Shown in pieces: positions 13,201 through 63,955 of a stretch of DNA of 64,000 nucleotides. Numbering within the stretch: the stretch's first letter is position 1; each line of letters begins with the position of its first letter. Origin of the DNA: Cliona cf. orientalis (taxonomy: Eukaryota > Porifera > Demospongiae > Clionaida > Clionaidae); contig OZ005690.1 in the NCBI GenBank assembly GCA_963930775.1, positions 7,238,225-7,302,224 of the forward strand. Direction: 5' to 3'. The notes under the pieces are model-generated. The model saw nothing but the letters and a program-made list of their open reading frames with translations. It was not told the DNA's origin and did not search any database. A program made the position numbers and the translations under genes.

Positions 13201-16186
13201 CATTAAACCATCATGCTCAAGTAATACACATACCTGTGCTTTCTCTCAATGGCTTTCATGAGACAGTTACGTCCTTCTTCATTCCTTTCAGTAACAGCTG
13301 CTCCTTTCTTGAGGAGGATCCTGACACACCTGGTGTAGCCATTTGTTGCAGCTAAAATGAGGGGCGAATGCTATAGTGCATGTAGACAACAAATTATGAT
13401 GAAATGGAAAGAAAGTACTGGCTATGTGTATGTGACAGTGTATTGCATACTTCTTGGCTAGTTGGAATGAAAGTTTCGTGAAGGCTCAGTAAGTAATTCA
13501 CAATATCATCATTCCCAGCTTTTGCTGCGCAAGAGAGAGGGGTTTCTCCACTTGACCTATTAAATCAGTAATCACATAAGTGATAAACTATATACATAAC
13601 CGCTATAATAAAAAGTGTATACATTAGGTGGTTTGGAGAGCACATCATGTCTTTAACCAGTAGTTTGACAATATCAACTGATCCATAGGAGCATGCGTAG
13701 AGAAGCAGTTTTGGACCCCACTCTTCCCAGAAACTGTCCCATGCCAATTTCTCCATATTCTGCTCTGCACAGGGCTTTGACTCCCTTTCATCAACACGCT
13801 CCTTAAGTGTTTGTATTATGCTGTGAAGAGTGAAAAGCTAAATTAAATTTTGACTGCTGGTTGCAGATTAGTTAGCATACCTTGTACGCTTATTTTCGAT
13901 TGCAATGTGCAGTGGTGTCTTTTCGTCACTGTTTTCCCACATCAATGCTGCAAACTGGCCCCTTTGAATCTTCTGTTGTGCCGACTCTCCTATTGAGATC
14001 AGTCTTCTGAACTGATTTGTAGGCTGTGCATCTCCTGTGCTTGCTGGTTCTAGCTTCAGCGATGGTAGAGGAAAAACTACCTGCAGAGCAATGCGATAAA
14101 AATCATTATACTAGCTAATAATTATAACCACACTAGACCATTGCATTAATTTCATACTTTGAATAGCTTTGAGTTTCCTGTCAGAGCAGCAATGTGACCA
14201 AGTGTGTTATCTTCATCATCAAATTTTCCAACCATCACAGTTTGGTCCAAATCACGGAGTACCTGCAGTTTGTAAATACTAAGCAGTAACTACGACATTG
14301 ATAAGATAAATTATTCAAACTTAAGGCAAGTAAAGTACCTCAAATACACAAGTGAGTTCTTCAGTTATAGCTTGTTTCCACAACTCTTCATCATTAGACA
14401 CTTTTACTACAATGAGTGTGTTGTCCTTCTGCAATATACACTCCACAACTTTTGCATGACCTCCCCGAGCTGCTTCCAATAGTGCTTTTGCCACATCACT
14501 TTTATCACCGTTTTCCGTGTACCTGCAAACAGAAGTGCACATCTCAATTACTCCATTGCCCAGTGCATGTGGTGATGGTGGTGGTGAGGGGGGTGGGAGT
14601 GGCTAAATTCATCAGTACTGAAGTAAACCCTACTAGCTGTTGATGTACAGAAGATAATGAGAATATAGAATAGTTCCTTGCAATGATACAAATTTGTACA
14701 TTTCTTTTGGCTTATTTTGACTTTTTGATGACATGCCCCTAATGGATTGGTAATTACCCTGAGTATTGTTTTTGCACACCTACATATTGCATTAAAGTAA
14801 GTGTCTCCCAATTTCAGTAAACTAATAATTATTGTTGATCTTAGACATTCATTTTCAGTCTGTGTAGTAATAGATCAGTTCATTTGAAAAAAGAAACAGT
14901 GGACAAAGTTTTAGAGTACAATGTCAAAATACATGCTCTGTGAAATGTAACAGCGCCAAATAAGAAGGCAATAATTTTTAATGTAATAGTGCACGTTTTC
15001 ATAACTATTTGCATCCAGTAACTCACATATTGAGCAAAATTCTCACTGATTCCAAATCACCTTGACCAGCAGCAATCTGTAAAGCTGTTCTTCCATTTTC
15101 ATCAGTGACAGTCAGCATACTGTCACCGTGAATTTGAAGTAGCTTTTTGATCATTTCCTTATTTCCACATGTAAGGAGTGCATGGGCAGGATGCCGACCA
15201 ACTTCACTGAACATGCTCATGGCATCTTCATTGAAGATATTCACCTCAAATACCTTTTCAATGAAGGTGAGGATTTCATGAGAAAGAAGATGCTCCTGAA
15301 GCAGCCACGAAATGTAGTGGTTGGTACCGAACTCGTAGTATTCAGAAAGGAGGTGTATTACACCAGCTGCTTCACTAGGATCAGAATCAGCAAGAATAGG
15401 ATTTGCGCCTACTTTTACCATCAGCTTTACAACATCAATTCTTTGGATCAAGATGGCTAGCTCCAGTGGAGAGCAGATGGAAATGGTTTGTCCAGTACCA
15501 ACAGCAAAAGTATGTAGGATGTTGACATTTAGATCATCACTGAGGGCTCCCTTGAGAAGATGCTCAAGTATTGCACTCTCCACCTTATTTGGACATTCAT
15601 GATGTTGGGAATATACCAAAACTTGACTCAATGGAGACCCTATCATACTGTTGCCTAAATGAAGGCCTAATTGTATAATAATACAAAATTAATAGTTGGT
15701 TAGATTAATTAAGCTGTGCACGTGTGCAACATACTTGCTCCTTCATCAATGAGCATCTCCATCATGCCCCGTTGGTTGTGAATGGCACTGTAAGCCAGCA
15801 GTGTCATGTAGTAGAGTGTACGCTGTCCCTTGCGTTTTGAAACAACTGATTGAAGGTAGTATACATCAAGGTAGTCCTCGATACCAGGGCATGTTCCAGC
15901 TGCCTCCTTCATCATATGAATTGAGTCTTTCATTTTTGCAAAATTTCCATGTTCAATAGCCTGCAGATGATTTGCATAATATAATTATTAACAATTAATA
16001 ATTTTCTTTTCATAGTACCTTCATAGCACACATAAATGATTCCTGGAAGGCAGCAGTGCAGTCCCTAAGATCAGTAAATGCAGCAGTCACCAACTCTATC
16101 TCATACTTGTAACGAAGCTCAAGCAATTTATCCATCAAAAGAGTTTTTGGTGGCAGTTGATCAACAGTTGTAGGCACTACTGCCAT
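10296..16186 (-). CDS. TRPA-like ankyrin-repeat cation channel
   Basis: Eighteen exons join in consistent phase to 1308 aa: 16019-16186, 15735-15960, 15027-15654, 14339-14522, 14158-14262, 13881-14080, 13623-13820, 13451-13556, 13234-13370, 13071-13177, 12872-13012, 12520-12788, 12254-12456, 11702-12218, 11394-11570, 11256-11324, 10692-10844, 10296-10634. The N-terminal half has ankyrin-type units (NGRTALQIAAGQGDLESVRI, GETPLSCAAKAGNDDIVNYL, HSPLILAATNGYTRCVRILL, EKTPLHIAIENK). Six membrane segments follow: S1 in 12254-12456, S2-S5 in 11702-12218 (FVVPTI in S3, FLGWLN before S4, LTFGFPFYMMFV in S5), and a pore loop (KVFLQTSGDID) with S6 in 11394-11570, ending NNFLIGMAVGE. The FLGWLN, S5 and NNFLIGMAVGE blocks fit TRPA rather than other TRP families. 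The C-terminus is a coiled coil, as expected for tetramer assembly. Ligand and gating cannot be read from sequence. Confidence 0.88.
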
Positions 16187-52904: not shown

Positions 52905-54430
52905 AGAATCGGCCAGGGAAATAATCTAATTCATGGGGGGTTTGGGAGTACTTGGGAAGATAATTATTACATGGGCACGCAGAATGGGTCAAAACTAGAG
53001 ATTTGATCCTGGGGAATATTTTGATTCATGCCTTAGAATTAAAGTTACTGCCCTTTGAAGTTTCCCCATATGTTTGTACAGGGAAGCCATGCGTTTGCAA
53101 TGTTTCCGCCCACGCGCTACGTGGGGGGCGGGGCCACGCGCGCACATAAACGTGACGACCTTTAACAACCTTTGACAAAATTCAAATTTAGGCTGCCTGC
53201 TAGCATTGTATGGTTCCACTATGCACCCAGCTCAATCATATGGTGGTTTTTGGATAATTTTTTTTTTTCTGCTTAGTGTTCAGGTCGCCTTGTTAAACAC
53301 TAAGTAGAAAAAAAAGCATATTTAAATAATTAAATAATCTAATTCATGGGGGGTTTGGGAGCACTTGGGGGACAATTTTTACATGGGCACGCAGAATGGG
53401 TCAAAACTAGAATTTTGATGGCGGGAAATTTTGATTCACACCTTACAATTAAAGTTATGGCCCTTTGAAGTTTCCCCATATGTTTGTATAGGAAGCCATG
53501 TATTTGCAATGTTTCCGCCCACGCGCTACGTGAGGGGCGGGGCTACGCGCGCACATAGACTTGACGACCTTTACCCAATTTGGTCTAAACTGAAGTATAG
53601 GTTGCCTGCTTGCATTGTATGGTTCCACTATGCATCCAGCTCAACTATGTCGTGGTTTCCAGACAATTTCTTTTTTCTGCTTAGTGTTCTGGTCGCCTTG
53701 AAAATAATTAAACACTAAGTAGTTCAACACTAAGTAGAAAAAAATATAGAAAAATAAGTCACAGGGGGATTGAGAGCACCTGGGTGCATAATTTTTATAT
53801 GGGCACGCAGAATGGGTCGAAACTAGAGATTTGACCTTAGGGAATTTTGATTCACGCCTTAGCATTAAAGTTACGGCTCTTTGAAGTTTCCCCATATGTT
53901 TGTACAGGGAAGCCATGCGTTTGCAATGTTTCCGCCCACGCGCTACATGAGGGGCGGGGCCACGCGCGCACATAAACGTGACGACTTTTACCAACTTTTT
54001 GACAAAATGAAATTTAGGCTGCCTGCTTGCATTGTATGGCTCCACTATGCATCCAGCTCGATTATATGGTGGTTTTTGGACAATTTTTTTTTCTGCTTAG
54101 TGTTCTGGTCGCCTTGAAAAAAAAAAAAAAGATGTTTAATTAATTCAGAAGGGAACTGGGAGCACTTGGGGACATAATTTTTGCACCGGCGCGCAGAATG
54201 GATCGAATGCAGAGATTTGACTTTCATGATTCACGCCTTAGAATCAAAGTTAAGGCCCTTTGAAGTTCCCCCATATGTTTGTATAGGGAAGCCATGCGTT
54301 TGCAATGTTTCCGCCCACGCGCTACGTGAGGGGCGGGGCCACGCGCACATAAACGTGACGACCTTTACCAATTTTTTTTTACAAATTTGAAATTTAAGCT
54401 GCCTGCTTGCATTATGGTTCCACTATTCAC
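52905..54430 (+). repeat. tandem array of about 410-bp GC-boxed units
   Basis: Four units. Each has GGGAGCACTTGGG-type sequence, GGCACGCAGAATGGGTC, TTTGAAGTTTCCCCATATGT, a GC box TTTCCGCCCACGCGCTACGT then GAGGGGCGGGGC (53107, 53512, 53930 and 54309 approximately), CGACCTTTACCAA, GCCTGC..GCATTGTATGGTTCCAC, and AATTTTTTTTTCTGCTTAGTG then TCGCCTTGAAAA. Unit spacing is about 405, 418 and 380 bp. Recurrent ORFs on both strands are repeat by-products. Confidence 0.85.
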
Positions 54431-57239: not shown

Positions 57240-57710
57240 CTTATGCGTCCATGCTACTTATCTCAGTGGAAGTATCTGTAAAAGTGGCTTGTCGGTCCAC
57301 ACATTTACTGACTGCAGCCACAGAGCCATCATCATGCTACTTATCCTAGTGGAAGTACCCGTGAGAGTGAAAGTATCTGCTTGCCAGTCCACGACAGCCA
57401 CAGACTGAAGGCACAGAGCTATCTCAATGCTACTTATACTGGTGGAAGTATCTGCGAAAGTGGCTTGTCAGTCCACGATAGCCACAGATTGCAGGCACAG
57501 AGCTATCACCATGCTACTTATTCTGGTGGAAGTATCTGTGAAAGTGGCTTATTGGTCCACGACAGCAACAAACTGCAGCCACAGAGCCATCACCATGCTA
57601 CTTATCCTGGTGGAAGTATCTGTGTAAGTGGCTTGTTGGTCCAGGAAGACACAGACTGCAGCACAGAGCTACTTATTCTGGTGGAAGTATCTGTGAAAGT
57701 GGCTCATTTT
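57240..57710 (+). repeat. 84-bp minisatellite, block 1 (plus orientation)
   Basis: Units of about 84 bp carry ATGCTACTTATCCTGGTGGA, then AGTATCTGTGAAAGTGGCTT, GTCGGTCCACGACAGCCACA, GACTGCAGCCACAGAGCCAT. Landmark positions at about 57250, 57334, 57427, 57511, 57595 and 57667. Because 84 is a multiple of 3, ORFs run through the block in more than one frame. Confidence 0.88.
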
Positions 57711-58118
57711 GAAGAATTCTACGCACCCCAAACCACCCCAAACTTAAAAATCACATGTATATGTATATATAATATTATTATGCATAATTTAGAAATTCTG
57801 GACATACTCGGCCACTTAATGCAGAATCAGCATTGTTAACAAAATAAACCCGGCAAATGATATCACTGTTGCATAAGTTCCAGTTCTGATTGTTGTTGTG
57901 AAAAAACATCTGTCGTAAGACATAAAAATGTAATGTTCAATCTCGATCCGGTTGTCCGGCTGCTAATAAACTCTTTATCCTTACTATATTCTTGGACATA
58001 TCTATAGGAGCAGGAACAAAGTACACCTTCAATTCATCACTGTTTGGGTCTAAACCGAGAGTTTTAAAAATTGACTTGTATGTTTTTTCCGTTTTTATAT
58101 GAGTTTCAGCAAATGTCA
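57690..58118. repeat. segmental duplication, left copy
   Basis: From GTGGCTCATTTTGAAGAA to the edge of the second minisatellite block this matches about 59425-59840 in the same orientation (CACATGTATATGTATATATA, GGACATACTCGGCCACTTAA, CATAAAAATGTAATGTTCAA, and the CRN tail). The duplication includes the end of the minisatellite block. Confidence 0.85.
57937..58118 (-). pseudogene. truncated CRN/RHS nuclease-tail fragment
   Basis: A minus-strand frame ends with TGA at 57937 and encodes the last 60 or so residues of the nuclease-like module: AETHIKTEKTYKSIF, LGLDPNSDELKVYFVPAP and RIKSLLAAGQPDRD. It is the counterpart of 59655-59840. Upstream the homology stops at about 58118, where the minisatellite begins, so the rest of the gene is missing. 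The reading frame here is intact, unlike the longer copy. Confidence 0.75.
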
Positions 58119-58124
58119 CGCCTT

Positions 58125-58882
58125 CAGTCTGTGACAATCGTGGACTGACAAGTCACTTTCACAAGTACTTCCACCAAAATAAGTTGCATGGTGATGGCTT
58201 TGTGGCTGCAGTCTGTGACTGTTGTGGACCAACAAACCTTTTTCACAGGTACTTCCACCTGGATAAGTAGCATGGTCATGGCTCTGTGGGTCAGTCTGTG
58301 GTTGTTAACGACCAACAAGCCATTTTTACAGAAACTTCCACTGAGATAAGTAGCATGGAGATAGCTCAGTGCCTTCAGTCTGTGGCTGTCGTGGACCGAC
58401 AAGCTATTTATACAGACACTTCCACCAAAATAAGAGTAACATGGAGATAGCTCTGTGGCTGCAGTCTGTCGCTGTCATGGACCAGCAAGCCATTTTTACA
58501 GAAACTTCCACTGAGATAAGTAGCATGGAGGTAGCTCTGTGCCTTCAGTCTGTGGCTATCGTGACCAACAAGCCACTGTCCCTGGTACTTCCACCAGAAT
58601 AAGTAGCTCTGTGCTTCAGTCTGTGGCTGTCGTGGACTGACAAGTCACTTTTACATATACTTCTACCTAGATAAGTAGCATGTAGATAGCTCTGTGCCTT
58701 TCGTCTGTGACTGTTGTTGACCGACAAGCCACTTTCACAAATACTTTCACCAGAATAAGTAGCATGGTAATGGCTCTGTGGCTGCAGTCTGTAATTATGT
58801 GGACCGACAAGCCACTTACACAGATACTTCCACCAGAATAAGTAGGATGGAGGTATCACAAAGCTAACTCCATGGTACTTAT

Positions 58883-58913
<31 letters not shown>

Positions 58914-58975
58914 TAACACTTGTAGTAGTACTTCCACCACAATAAGTTGCATGGTAATGGCTCTATGGCTGCAGC
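58125..58975 (-). repeat. 84-bp minisatellite, block 2 (minus orientation)
   Basis: About ten units in the reverse direction (CACTTTCACAAGTACTTCCA, then CCA.AATAAGTAGCATGG). Interrupted near 58880-58912 by a CT/CA microsatellite. Meets block 3 head-on at about 58975, creating a large inverted repeat. Confidence 0.85.
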
Positions 58976-59450
58976 CTGTAACACAGAGCTATCTCCATGC
59001 TACTTATCCTTGTGGAAGTATCCGTGAATGTGGCTTGTCGGTCTACGACAGCCACAGACTGAAGGCACATAGCTACGTCCATGCTACTTATCTCAGTGGA
59101 AGTATCTGTAAAAGTGGCTTGTCGGTCCACAACAGCCACCAACTGAAGGCACAGAGCTATCTCAATGCTACTTATTCCGGTGGAAGTATCTGTGTAAGTG
59201 GCTTGGTCCACACAGGTACAAACTGCAGCCACAGAGCCATAACCATGCTACTTATCCTGGTGGAAGTACCTGTGAAAGTGGCTTGTCGGTCCACGACAGT
59301 CACAGATTGCAGCCACAGAGCCATCACCATGCTACTTATCCTGGTGGAAGTAGCTATCTGTGTAAGTGGCTTGTCGGTCCAGGAAGACACAGACTGCAGC
59401 ACAGAGCTACTTATTCTGGTGGAAATATCTGTGAAAGTGGGTCATTTTGA
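58976..59450 (+). repeat. 84-bp minisatellite, block 3 (plus orientation)
   Basis: Six units with the same landmarks as block 1, ending in the same shortened unit (GACACAGACTGCAGCACAGA, then GCTACTTATTCTGGTGGAAA) before the duplicated CRN-tail segment. Blocks 1 and 3 with their right flanks are therefore one duplicated unit. Confidence 0.85.
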
Positions 59451-59654
59451 AGAACTCTACGCACCCCAAACTTAAAAATCACATGTATATGTATATATAA
59501 TATTATTATGCATAATTTAGAAATTCTGGACATACTCGGCCACTTAATGAGCATTGTTAACAAAATAAACCCGGCAAATGATATCAATGTTACATAAGTT
59601 CTGGTTCTGATTCTTGCTGTGAAAAAACATCTGTCGTAAGACATAAAAATGTAA

Positions 59655-60286
59655 TGTTCAATCTCGATCCGGCTGTCCGCCTGCTAATAAACTCTTTATC
59701 CTTAATATATTCTTCGACATATTCAGGAGCAGGAACAAAGTACAACTTCAATTTATCACTGTTTGGGTCTAAACCGAGAATTTCAAAAAGTAACCTGTAT
59801 GTTTTTTTCCGTTTTTTTATGAGTTTCAGCAGATATCACTTGAATACCACACACTTCATTCGTCGTTTCGTCCTTCCATAGCATATCGCAGGCTACAAAC
59901 TGTGGATTGACAGGCCGATAGAGAATACCAGGCTGCATCGCTCTAAGGACTTTAGTTTCTTCATGTTTAGCAACCTCCTTACCACGTTTAAATTTAACTT
60001 TAAACTCCTCTTTGGCATTCAACTTACATACTTTCCATTTATATTGTTGTGCTTTAGGTTCGGTTAATAGTGCAAATACGACGTCTTCAAACAGAATGGG
60101 AACCATTTTCCTTCCTTTGAACATACTTCTGAGTGTTGCAAGGGTCACTGATAACTGTGTATTTTCTCCACCACCAGAGTTCCACTCGTCTTTTGAGTTC
60201 CACTCCTCATTTATCACTTCCGTCCCAGTTACAATCAGTATCAACTCTGTACCAGATGGATTTAGATATGTACACATCTCAACCAC
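59655..60286 (-). pseudogene. CRN/RHS-type nuclease module, frameshifted
   Basis: The minus-strand frame from 60286 encodes the C-terminal half of a Crinkler/RHS-type protein: a DEWNS linker, then RKMVPILFEDVVFALL, QYKWKVCKLN and the restriction-endonuclease-like core LYRPVNPQFVACDMLW..GIQVISAETHKKTEK. It breaks at 59783 because a T-run at 59802-59808 has 7 bases where the sister copy has 6 (58083-58088). After the shift, homology continues (LGLDPNSDKLKLYFVPAP) to about 59655. Its 5' 31 bp overlap the start of the plus-strand NTPase ORF, so the first 30 or so residues are probably antisense artefact. Such nucleases normally follow the NTPase on the same strand. The decay suggests a non-functional copy, though an alternative splice could skip the run. 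Confidence 0.7.
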
Positions 60287-61417
60287 AGTCCGATTTCCTC
60301 CAAAGATTTGAATTTAATGCAAAGTTCACACGTCTTTTAGGTAATCTGAAGAATCTCAAGAAAATTTCACTAGGTGGAGGGGTTGAAGCATTACGAATAG
60401 AAGTTCCCTTCTCCAAAGGTCTTCAAGGAAATACGCTTTACATTCGTAGCTTCTACAGTAGCCTTTTTGATGCAATAATGGAGCGGAACGATTGTATCTT
60501 GATGGGGAATCCTGGTATTTCAAAATCATGGTTTCAACTGTATATGCTTTATCGCTTTATTAATGATACATCCAAACGTATTGTTAATATTGTTCGTCAA
60601 GTCGGAAATCAAGTGACATTGATCAATCTTGAGCAAGGCAAAGCCTTCACCTGCTCTAATAAAGAGGGTTATTATATTTTAGAATTTCTCAAGCCTGAGA
60701 AAGCCTATTATATTGTGGAACCTAAGAATTTCCACGAAGAACCTCATCAAGGAGAACACACCATAAAAACGTGCATCACAGCTTCTCCAGATGAAAGACG
60801 TTTCAAGGAATTTCACAAGAGCGGGGCAGTGAAATTGTATATGCCAGTTTGGAAACTAGAGGAGCTGCATATAGTTGGAAAGGATGTTGTTGCTAACACT
60901 ACATGTGAGCGTACAAAACGTATGTTGACAGAGCAACAAATTGAAGAGCGATTTCGGCGTTTTGGAGGTATTATTCGGTATGTAATTTCTGCCAGTGATG
61001 ACTATATTCAAGACATGCAATCGAATCAAGCCACGGCTATATCACATACTAAACCAGCGGACATTTACGTAGATGGTGATAACATAACAAACATGGATCA
61101 AATGAAATCAAATGTTAGCCACTTTGTGCTGCAATACCATGTTTATATGGATGTTCCAAATCTGTTTAGAGAGTTTAGAATGTGCTATGCCAGTGCGTAT
61201 GTGCAGGAACAGATTCGTAGAAAAATGACGATAGGTGATATTCATCATTCAGGTAAGAAGATTGTTAGGTCACTCCAACATATCCCACCCACATGTACTT
61301 ACATGTATGGAAGAACCCAAACGACCACAAGAAACGAAAAGATGAGTGGAATCCAGATGATGAGTAAAATTCAGAAGACCAGTGGAACTCCTGTAACCCA
61401 AAAGACGAGTGGAACTC
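60177..61417. repeat. 19-nt inverted repeat pair bracketing the CRN NTPase
   Basis: GAGTTCCACTCGTCTTTTG at 60177-60195 and its exact complement CAAAAGACGAGTGGAACTC at 61399-61417. Both are part of a repeated linker coding for D-E-W-N-S (minus strand at the left, plus strand at the right). The whole NTPase ORF lies between them. Confidence 0.85.
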
Positions 61418-61437
61418 CGAAGAAGAGTGGAACCTAG
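60256..61437 (+). CDS. Crinkler/RHS-type P-loop NTPase
   Basis: Starts at the ATG at 60256 (MDLDMYTSQPQSDFL); the longer ORF from 60133 is antisense to the nuclease module. Family features: Walker A MGNPGISKSWF (about residues 83-93) followed by YMLYRF, a Walker-B-like KAYYIVEP, the sensor-like block CITASPDERRFKEFHKSGAV, YMPVWKLEELH, then ERFRRFGGIIRYVIS, the usual end of this NTPase. ASAYVQEQIRR precedes a consensus donor (CAG|GTAAGA at 61253), so the real exon may end at 61252 and the Thr/Lys tail to 61437 may not be coding. CRN/RHS proteins are known as oomycete secreted effectors and trypanosome proteins and also occur in free-living eukaryotes. The usual C-terminal nuclease is absent on this strand; it lies inverted at 59655-60286. 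Whether the gene is active is unknown. Confidence 0.75.
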   Translation: MDLDMYTSQPQSDFLQRFEFNAKFTRLLGNLKNLKKISLGGGVEALRIEVPFSKGLQGNTLYIRSFYSSLFDAIMERNDCILMGNPGISKSWFQLYMLYRFINDTSKRIVNIVRQVGNQVTLINLEQGKAFTCSNKEGYYILEFLKPEKAYYIVEPKNFHEEPHQGEHTIKTCITASPDERRFKEFHKSGAVKLYMPVWKLEELHIVGKDVVANTTCERTKRMLTEQQIEERFRRFGGIIRYVISASDDYIQDMQSNQATAISHTKPADIYVDGDNITNMDQMKSNVSHFVLQYHVYMDVPNLFREFRMCYASAYVQEQIRRKMTIGDIHHSGKKIVRSLQHIPPTCTYMYGRTQTTTRNEKMSGIQMMSKIQKTSGTPVTQKTSGTPKKSGT

Positions 61438-61536
61438 CATTATCTGGTGAAAGAAATGTAGTTACAATTAACAACAAGGTAAAAAGTGTAGTATACTACT
61501 CTGATAAAGTTAAATTAAAAGTATAGTAAAAAGAGA

Positions 61537-61608
61537 GGGAAAATATCATACTCCATGCAGAAATTTCTGCATGTAGTACGATATTCTCCATTGTGGAAAT
61601 TTCTCCAC
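61537..61608. repeat. two adjacent palindromes
   Basis: GGAAAATATCATACTCCATG, CAGAAATTTCTG and CATGTAGTACGATATTCTCC form a near-perfect palindrome of about 53 bp centred on AAATTT (61537-61589). It is followed at once by TGTGGAAATTTCTCCACA, again centred on AAATTT. Downstream of the CRN NTPase; function unknown. Confidence 0.7.
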
Positions 61609-63110: not shown

Positions 63111-63155
63111 TAATTATTCGAACATTCTAATAGCCCAAACGGCAAGTTTAAGTAA

Positions 63156-63955
63156 TTGGGGCGAGCCTGAGCGAGCCCCACATAGACGAGACAAACGCTC
63201 GCAATCCATATATTATTGGGGCGAGCCTGAGCGAGCCCCACATAGACGATACAAACGCTCGCAATCCATATATTATTATTATATATGTATGGTACGTCCG
63301 TCACGCGCGAACCGCCATAGACATTGTACAGCGCTGCGCGGTATATTTCAAAAGGCCGCATGAAAACATTTGCGTCAGCATAGTCACGTGTTTTTTTTGA
63401 CACATTAAATTATTTCAGTGAATTTCGCCACTTTTTTTGGCCACTTTATTACGACTATACTTATTCTTTGCTACAGTTTTAGTATGAGTTCTACTAACAC
63501 TCAATCTGCTGAAGCGAAGAGAGAGAAAAGGCTTCAAAGAAGGCGCGAAAGAGAGAGAGCGCATCATGCGTCTGAAACAGCCGAACAACGGGAACAGCGG
63601 TTGAGCAGAAGGAGAATCAGAGACAGAGCAGAGCTAGTCGTGAAGCCCAGTCAGTCGAACAAAGACAAACTCTTCTTCAACGTAGGCGGGAAAGGCTAAG
63701 CGCTGAGTCTAACAGAGGCAATTAAAATTTCAAGCTTTATTGACTGTCAGCACTGTAGGATGGAGGGGAATAGTCTATCATACAGCTGTAGACCTACAGG
63801 CCTACACGGCACTATGAGACTGTCTGTCATTGTTTGCTTGGATCTGTATCAGGGGTCTTCAAATCTATCGTGCTATGGCTTTATTCAAGTTTTCTAGTCG
63901 CAGCTCAGCTAGACATTCAGGGGCTCAGCTCAGGCTCGCCCCAAACAGGCCCTGC
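63156..63955. mobile_element. repeat-bounded element with Arg-rich ORF
   Basis: Left end: two 60-bp tandem copies of TTGGGGCGAGCCTGAGCGAG, then CCCCACATAGACGA and CAAACGCTCGCAATCCATAT. Right end: GGGGCTCAGCTCAGGCTCGC, then CCC, inverted to the left end. Outside, TATGTATGGTACGTC occurs both at about 63285 and at the very end of the window (63986-64000). The arrangement suggests a mobile element or its remnant; extent is uncertain because the window ends. Confidence 0.5.
63484..63715 (+). pseudogene. Arg-rich repeat protein fragment, frameshifted
   Basis: ATG at 63484 (MSSTNTQSAEAKREKRLQRR) leads into Arg/Glu-rich repeats (ASETAEQREQRLSRRRIRD). At about 63630 the frame breaks: the continuing repeat (EAQSVEQRQTLLQRRRERL) is in another frame that ends SNRGN-stop near 63724. 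Such Arg-rich repeats are found at the N-termini of proteins from large mobile elements with Pif1-like or Helitron helicases in some invertebrates; that link is from memory and not shown here. No helicase or Rep domain is visible in the window. Confidence 0.45.

Follow-up and report, generated by a model that had tools for sequence, protein, structure and literature searches.

A split RHS/CR-like NTPase and nuclease gene copy in the sponge Cliona cf. orientalis, best read as a local rearrangement

The locus and its gene family

How two modules that are joined in related genes come to lie on opposite strands is the question raised by a locus in the sponge Cliona cf. orientalis. We analysed a stretch of 64,000 nt (hereafter the window; GenBank assembly GCA_963930775.1, contig OZ005690.1, positions 7,238,225 to 7,302,224), which belongs to contig C2 in our numbering of a 217-Mb genome with 149 contigs and one assembly. 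An earlier note on this DNA had described an NTPase and a nuclease-like module facing away from each other, and this placement is real. Specifically, an NTPase-like frame occupies the plus strand (60133-61437; 434 aa between stops, with a Met at 60256 and the P-loop GNPGISKS), and the nuclease half is covered jointly by two minus-strand frames (59783-60313 and 59590-59835), being split over these frames by a frame shift near 59.8 kb. Our preferred explanation, to which we give a probability of roughly 80%, is that one duplicate of an RHS-like NTPase/REase-like gene lost its function through local, non-homologous rearrangement, i.e., ordinary decay rather than a switch.

Two close copies of the window gene were found in the genome, on contigs C5 and C9. 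The C5 copy, 94% identical to that of the window, carries the NTPase and then the nuclease on one strand in a single 542-aa frame (L009:5340-6968, minus strand). When this frame was used as a protein query, all 25 candidates were scored and 25 matches resulted, which we grouped into 13 places: C5, C2 (the window), C9, C18 (two), C4 (three), C1, C13 (two), C6, and C14. The C6 and C14 places are fragments with a single part each. Nine of the 11 two-module loci keep the order NTPase to nuclease on one strand, the exceptions being the window and C9. Single open frames were present at five of these nine (C5, C18:4743938, C4:3025049, and the C13 pair), and the remaining four contain stops or are spread over several frames. 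In the C13 pair, only the NTPase was matched by the search, and the nuclease part was read from the 517- and 516-aa frames and from the alignment. Compared at the sequence level, these loci show that NTPase then nuclease on the same strand is the usual and presumably ancestral order. The earlier claim that the modules belong in order on one strand was borne out by these nine loci.

The nuclease module of the family was named from the alignment pattern D...Q[VM]T, which we take to be a nuclease motif, and its matches to SMEK_N were weak (E = 0.014 at best). With regard to the NTPase, the trypanosome RHS model TIGR01631 matched the C5 frame (E = 2.6e-8), a C18 frame (E = 2.5e-9), and the window frame (E = 8.5e-9; 34 bits), with scores of 32-36 bits that fall far under the model cut-off of 89.75. 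The more distant C4 and C13 loci gave E values of 0.008-0.064 against the same model. Pfam RHSP was matched by C18 only (E = 0.07), nothing exceeded the Pfam cut-offs among the family frames tried, and a PDB sequence search returned no match better than E = 0.18. The sponge family is similar to the trypanosome retrotransposon hot spot (RHS) proteins (NCBIfam TIGR01631; Pfam PF07999) in its P-loop module and in being multicopy with broken copies, but it differs in scores far below the TIGR01631 cut-off and in the weak RHSP match.

According to PMC5289972 (after Zhang et al. 2016), CR (Crinkler-RHS) proteins commonly have a C-terminal part made up of an NTPase and an REase, in free-living eukaryotes too. 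The sponge loci share with these CR proteins the module order, a P-loop NTPase being followed by a putative REase-type nuclease. They differ in that the Crinkler header domain (ubiquitin-like/LXLFLAK) had no match among the open frames scanned, and in that their nuclease is a putative one named from a sequence pattern. A surface-level literature search on this family in sponges returned nothing useful. By module order, the loci resemble, and are candidates for, an RHS/CR-like family of NTPases with a putative REase-like nuclease, which is recorded here with at least 11 two-module loci in the 217-Mb genome.

Joints in the window and in the intact paralogue

The features of the locus are given below in window positions.

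57248..58119, partial second copy of satellite and nuclease 3' end, truncated (87% to 58994-59839)
58122..59440, arrays of an 84-nt satellite next to the gene, running one way at 58122-58852 and the other way at 58982-59409, and capable of forming hairpins
59590..60144, minus strand, block A: REase-like nuclease module, corresponding to the 3' portion of the ancestral gene (94.2% to the C5 nuclease half)
60144..60145, breakpoint 1 (A-B joint): C5 nuclease homology stops, where C5 goes on into the NTPase end
60145..60211, block B: minisatellite piece with 18-nt units, matching C5:6342093-6342163 and abutting D there
60177..60195, plus strand, left arm of the 19-nt inverted repeat, in the minisatellite units of B
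60211..60212, third derived joint (B-C), 5' flank U absent; C5 and C9 have another 5' flank
60212..61250, plus strand, block C: RHS-like P-loop NTPase module, without stop or indel relative to C5
61250..61251, breakpoint 2 (C-D joint): C5 enters the nuclease at this codon, the window enters D
61251..61562, block D: minisatellite-bearing, joined to B in C5 (matches c5 14093-13792)
61399..61417, minus strand, right arm of the 19-nt inverted repeat, in the minisatellite units of D

In the c5 script coordinates, block B matches 14094-14164. Block D was present only in C5 and the window among the 40 scored of 357 candidates. Two other repeats were seen in the window. At 63155-63274 a 60-nt sequence is directly repeated (two copies, 98% alike) and has a palindrome-like GGGGCGAGCC..GGCTCG core. 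A repeat region at 52919-54425, apparently a dispersed repeat, also matches an extended region on the left side of the C5 copy at ~73-84%.

These boundaries modify the extents given in the earlier note. A minus-strand nuclease was correctly recognized there, but it does not run from 60286 to 59655; its homology to the C5 nuclease extends from 60144 to about 59590, with a shifted frame. The 31-bp overlap reported between the two modules is a chance open frame, since minus-strand 60145-60286 consists of minisatellite and the antisense of the NTPase 5' end. The NTPase frame, which continues to 61437, loses its C5 homology at 61250, and 61251-61437 is a chance extension.

Along the plus strand of C5, block A is followed by C in reverse, then by 6-7 kb rich in satellite, and finally by D in reverse and B (A-C'...D'-B, as against A-B-C-D in the window). 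Its unbroken joints are C to A, within a continuous reading frame, and B to D, within a minisatellite region. The window joints B to A and C to D are an exchange of these two, and when read base by base this exchange involves no loss and at most one shared base (a single C). The 5' flank upstream of C, termed U, is common to C5 and C9 and is replaced in the window, where it had no match over 31 nt; among the 40 scored of 1168 candidates, it was present in full only in C5 and C9. Because C5 and C9 share the U-C joint, the B-C joint of the window is the derived one, and all three window joints are therefore new. Identities to C5, with gaps left out, were 94.2% (A), 92.6% (B), 93.6% (C), and 96.4% (D). 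This similarity argues that one duplicate was rearranged and that its parts are without clearly different ages.

The window split of NTPase and nuclease is best read as a derived, non-homologous local rearrangement in a satellite-rich region. That an inversion-type rearrangement broke the gene, as the earlier note had suggested, is supported by the intact C5 frame and the exchanged joints. If a C5-like ancestor had undergone one inversion between both broken joints, A-D and C-B would be expected rather than the observed A-B and C-D, and this simple path is rejected. The observed joints are compatible with two inversions in succession or with a circle that was excised and re-entered; the leftovers predicted for such a path, flank U and block Z, were not found in the window or in the 19.7 kb to its right (where hits >250 bits only were considered). 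An intron reaching from D to B is unlikely: a donor-like GTAAG opens D, but the paralogues have no intron there and B and D are contiguous in C5.

The window copy is thus a duplicate in which the module joint and the B/D minisatellite joint were broken and the ends exchanged without loss. Its NTPase now reads on into D, and on the opposite strand B stands in front of the nuclease; at least one further event created the B-C joint in place of the 5' flank common to C5 and C9. We infer that double-strand breaks or replication template switching, then end joining, could have been responsible, and that breakage may have been favoured by the 84-nt satellite arrays that lie in opposite orientations next to the gene. 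Compared among several individuals, the locus would offer a modest test of whether satellites drive gene breakage.

An assembly or phasing error, another explanation raised at the outset, would suit a satellite-rich neighbourhood whose sequence is known from one assembly. We consider it quite unlikely, however, given that both reciprocal joints are present and base-exact, that the joined blocks are ~4-7% off C5 and are thus not pieces of C5, and that several errors would be required for three joints and a lost flank; the C9 paralogue, moreover, shows a clean independent inversion.

Some minor features of the C5 surroundings were also noted. A dispersed element of ~110 bp adjoins block D (L010 3682-3791) and is found many times over in the genome, frequently in inverted pairs ~0.2-0.3 kb apart in a MITE-like manner; the window copy gave no match to it at the corresponding position. 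At L010 4230-4800, beside the minisatellite, lies what may be another P-loop gene (GPRGGGKST, read from the complement strand). It is preceded by GNGPTEGNG-type repeats and has stops in the frame tried, and a partial second copy of this stretch is found at C5:6358523.

Probable decay and possible constraint of the two halves

The two halves of the window gene have not fared alike when compared with C5. Block A has 32 substitutions and 1 internal gap, and block C has 66 substitutions, 0 gaps, and no stop. The three noncoding blocks together contain 29 substitutions and 4 internal indels, which differs from block C (Fisher p = 0.011, counting internal gaps only). Under random substitution, 2.3 stops would be expected in the NTPase block, and the probability of none is 0.10. 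The absence of stops and indels from this block means either that the break is recent or that the half-gene is still kept; the NTPase frame was probably maintained over the greater part of its history.

The reading that the two modules are head-to-head separate genes by design, with the NTPase alone as a live gene, draws on this undamaged NTPase block. Against it, the joints correspond to points within a continuous coding region of the paralogues, and a single strand and order are kept at nine of the 11 two-module loci. Furthermore, the nuclease half is broken, and nonsynonymous change between the window and C5 was not slower than synonymous change (dN/dS 1.28; 53 nonsynonymous and 11 synonymous; not different from 1, p = 0.53), which together make separate genes very unlikely. 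Under the rearrangement reading, the window nuclease half is dead, as it has no upstream module and a shifted frame. A pseudogene is the most likely state of the NTPase half as well, since this open frame is without its nuclease and probably without its promoter.

Between the window and C5, coding and noncoding divergence were similar (6.4 versus 5.6%, p = 0.65). A different pattern was seen between C5 and C9 (L009 6753-7467 in C5 versus L011 4191-4887 in C9), where 6 of 502 sites differ in the 5' flank, as against 19 differences in the adjoining first 186 bases of the NTPase block (p = 2.8e-7) and 61 of ~1273 in the inverted piece of C9 (p = 1.4e-4). The 3' flank of the same pair is not slow (8 of 136 sites differ), and this, together with the similar coding and noncoding divergence between the window and C5, speaks against a general rule of coding sequence changing faster than noncoding sequence. 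For the slow 5' flank of C5 and C9, a conversion event is at least as likely as diversifying selection.

The 19-nt inverted repeat and a second inversion in C9

The 19-nt inverted repeat flanking the NTPase block was rightly described as exact and is not due to chance (0.00 matches expected at up to 2 mismatches). The inference that it marks or mediates an inversion did not hold, as its arms lie 33 nt and 149 nt away from the breakpoints. The arms are built of 18-nt minisatellite units and have diverged units as neighbours. Counted by strand, minisatellite core sites number 5 versus 0 in C5 and 3 versus 2 in the window. Since the C5 units lie in one orientation, the inverted orientation of the units in the window is a by-product: the exchange took place at a point between blocks B and D and thereby reversed one of them. 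Within 40 nt of the true breakpoints, the best inverted match was 6 nt, a length that 70% of 300 random pairs reach. The 19-nt repeat is rejected as a recombination site, because the breakpoints lie elsewhere and have no inverted repeat above background. The repeat had also been assigned to a DEWNS-coding linker; this too is rejected, as the same block contains stops in that frame in C5 and no such linker separates the two modules of the intact paralogue.

A polymorphic or programmed inversion switch at this repeat, one of the options in the earlier note, is suggested by the exact arms around the NTPase block but is extremely improbable, given that a flip there would leave ~0.2 kb of B and D between the modules rather than a C5-type joint, that inverted matches at the segment ends do not exceed background, that the window nuclease frame is shifted, that the window has a third joint and has lost its 5' flank, and that its C9 sister flipped at different points. 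Comparison with the paralogues can thus explain the apparent switch, and the repeat itself, as a by-product of rearrangement.

Relative to C5, the C9 copy has a 1.28-kb segment in reverse orientation (C9 4890-6171 versus C5 5462-6753), which takes in the greater part of both the NTPase and the nuclease. The segment ends share microhomologies of 4 nt (ACTA/TAGT), one of the joints showing a 2-nt difference. The C9 flip differs from that of the window in its points and, on this evidence, is independent of it, so that two of the three young copies (the window and C9) are broken by different small inversions. Micro-inversions arising by microhomology or end joining can produce pseudogenes. The sponge copies are like this class in their base-exact joints with 1-4 nt of shared bases. 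They are unlike its typical members in that two of three young sisters are broken, at different sites, which is more than a casual expectation.

One might go further and suppose that small internal inversions strike the gene body of this young subfamily preferentially, that surrounding satellites of opposite orientation drive them, and that the modules are repeatedly split or reshuffled in this way, which would diversify a conflict-type family. We regard this extension as highly doubtful. Against window 57-64 kb, the C9 stretch gave 8 matches in all and C5 gave 606, and the low content of this satellite in the C9 stretch speaks against satellite-driven breakage there.

Downstream of the flipped C9 gene there is a stray 41-nt copy of the NTPase-nuclease joint (L011 6423-6463), which matches C5 5935-5895 across the intact joint at 88%.
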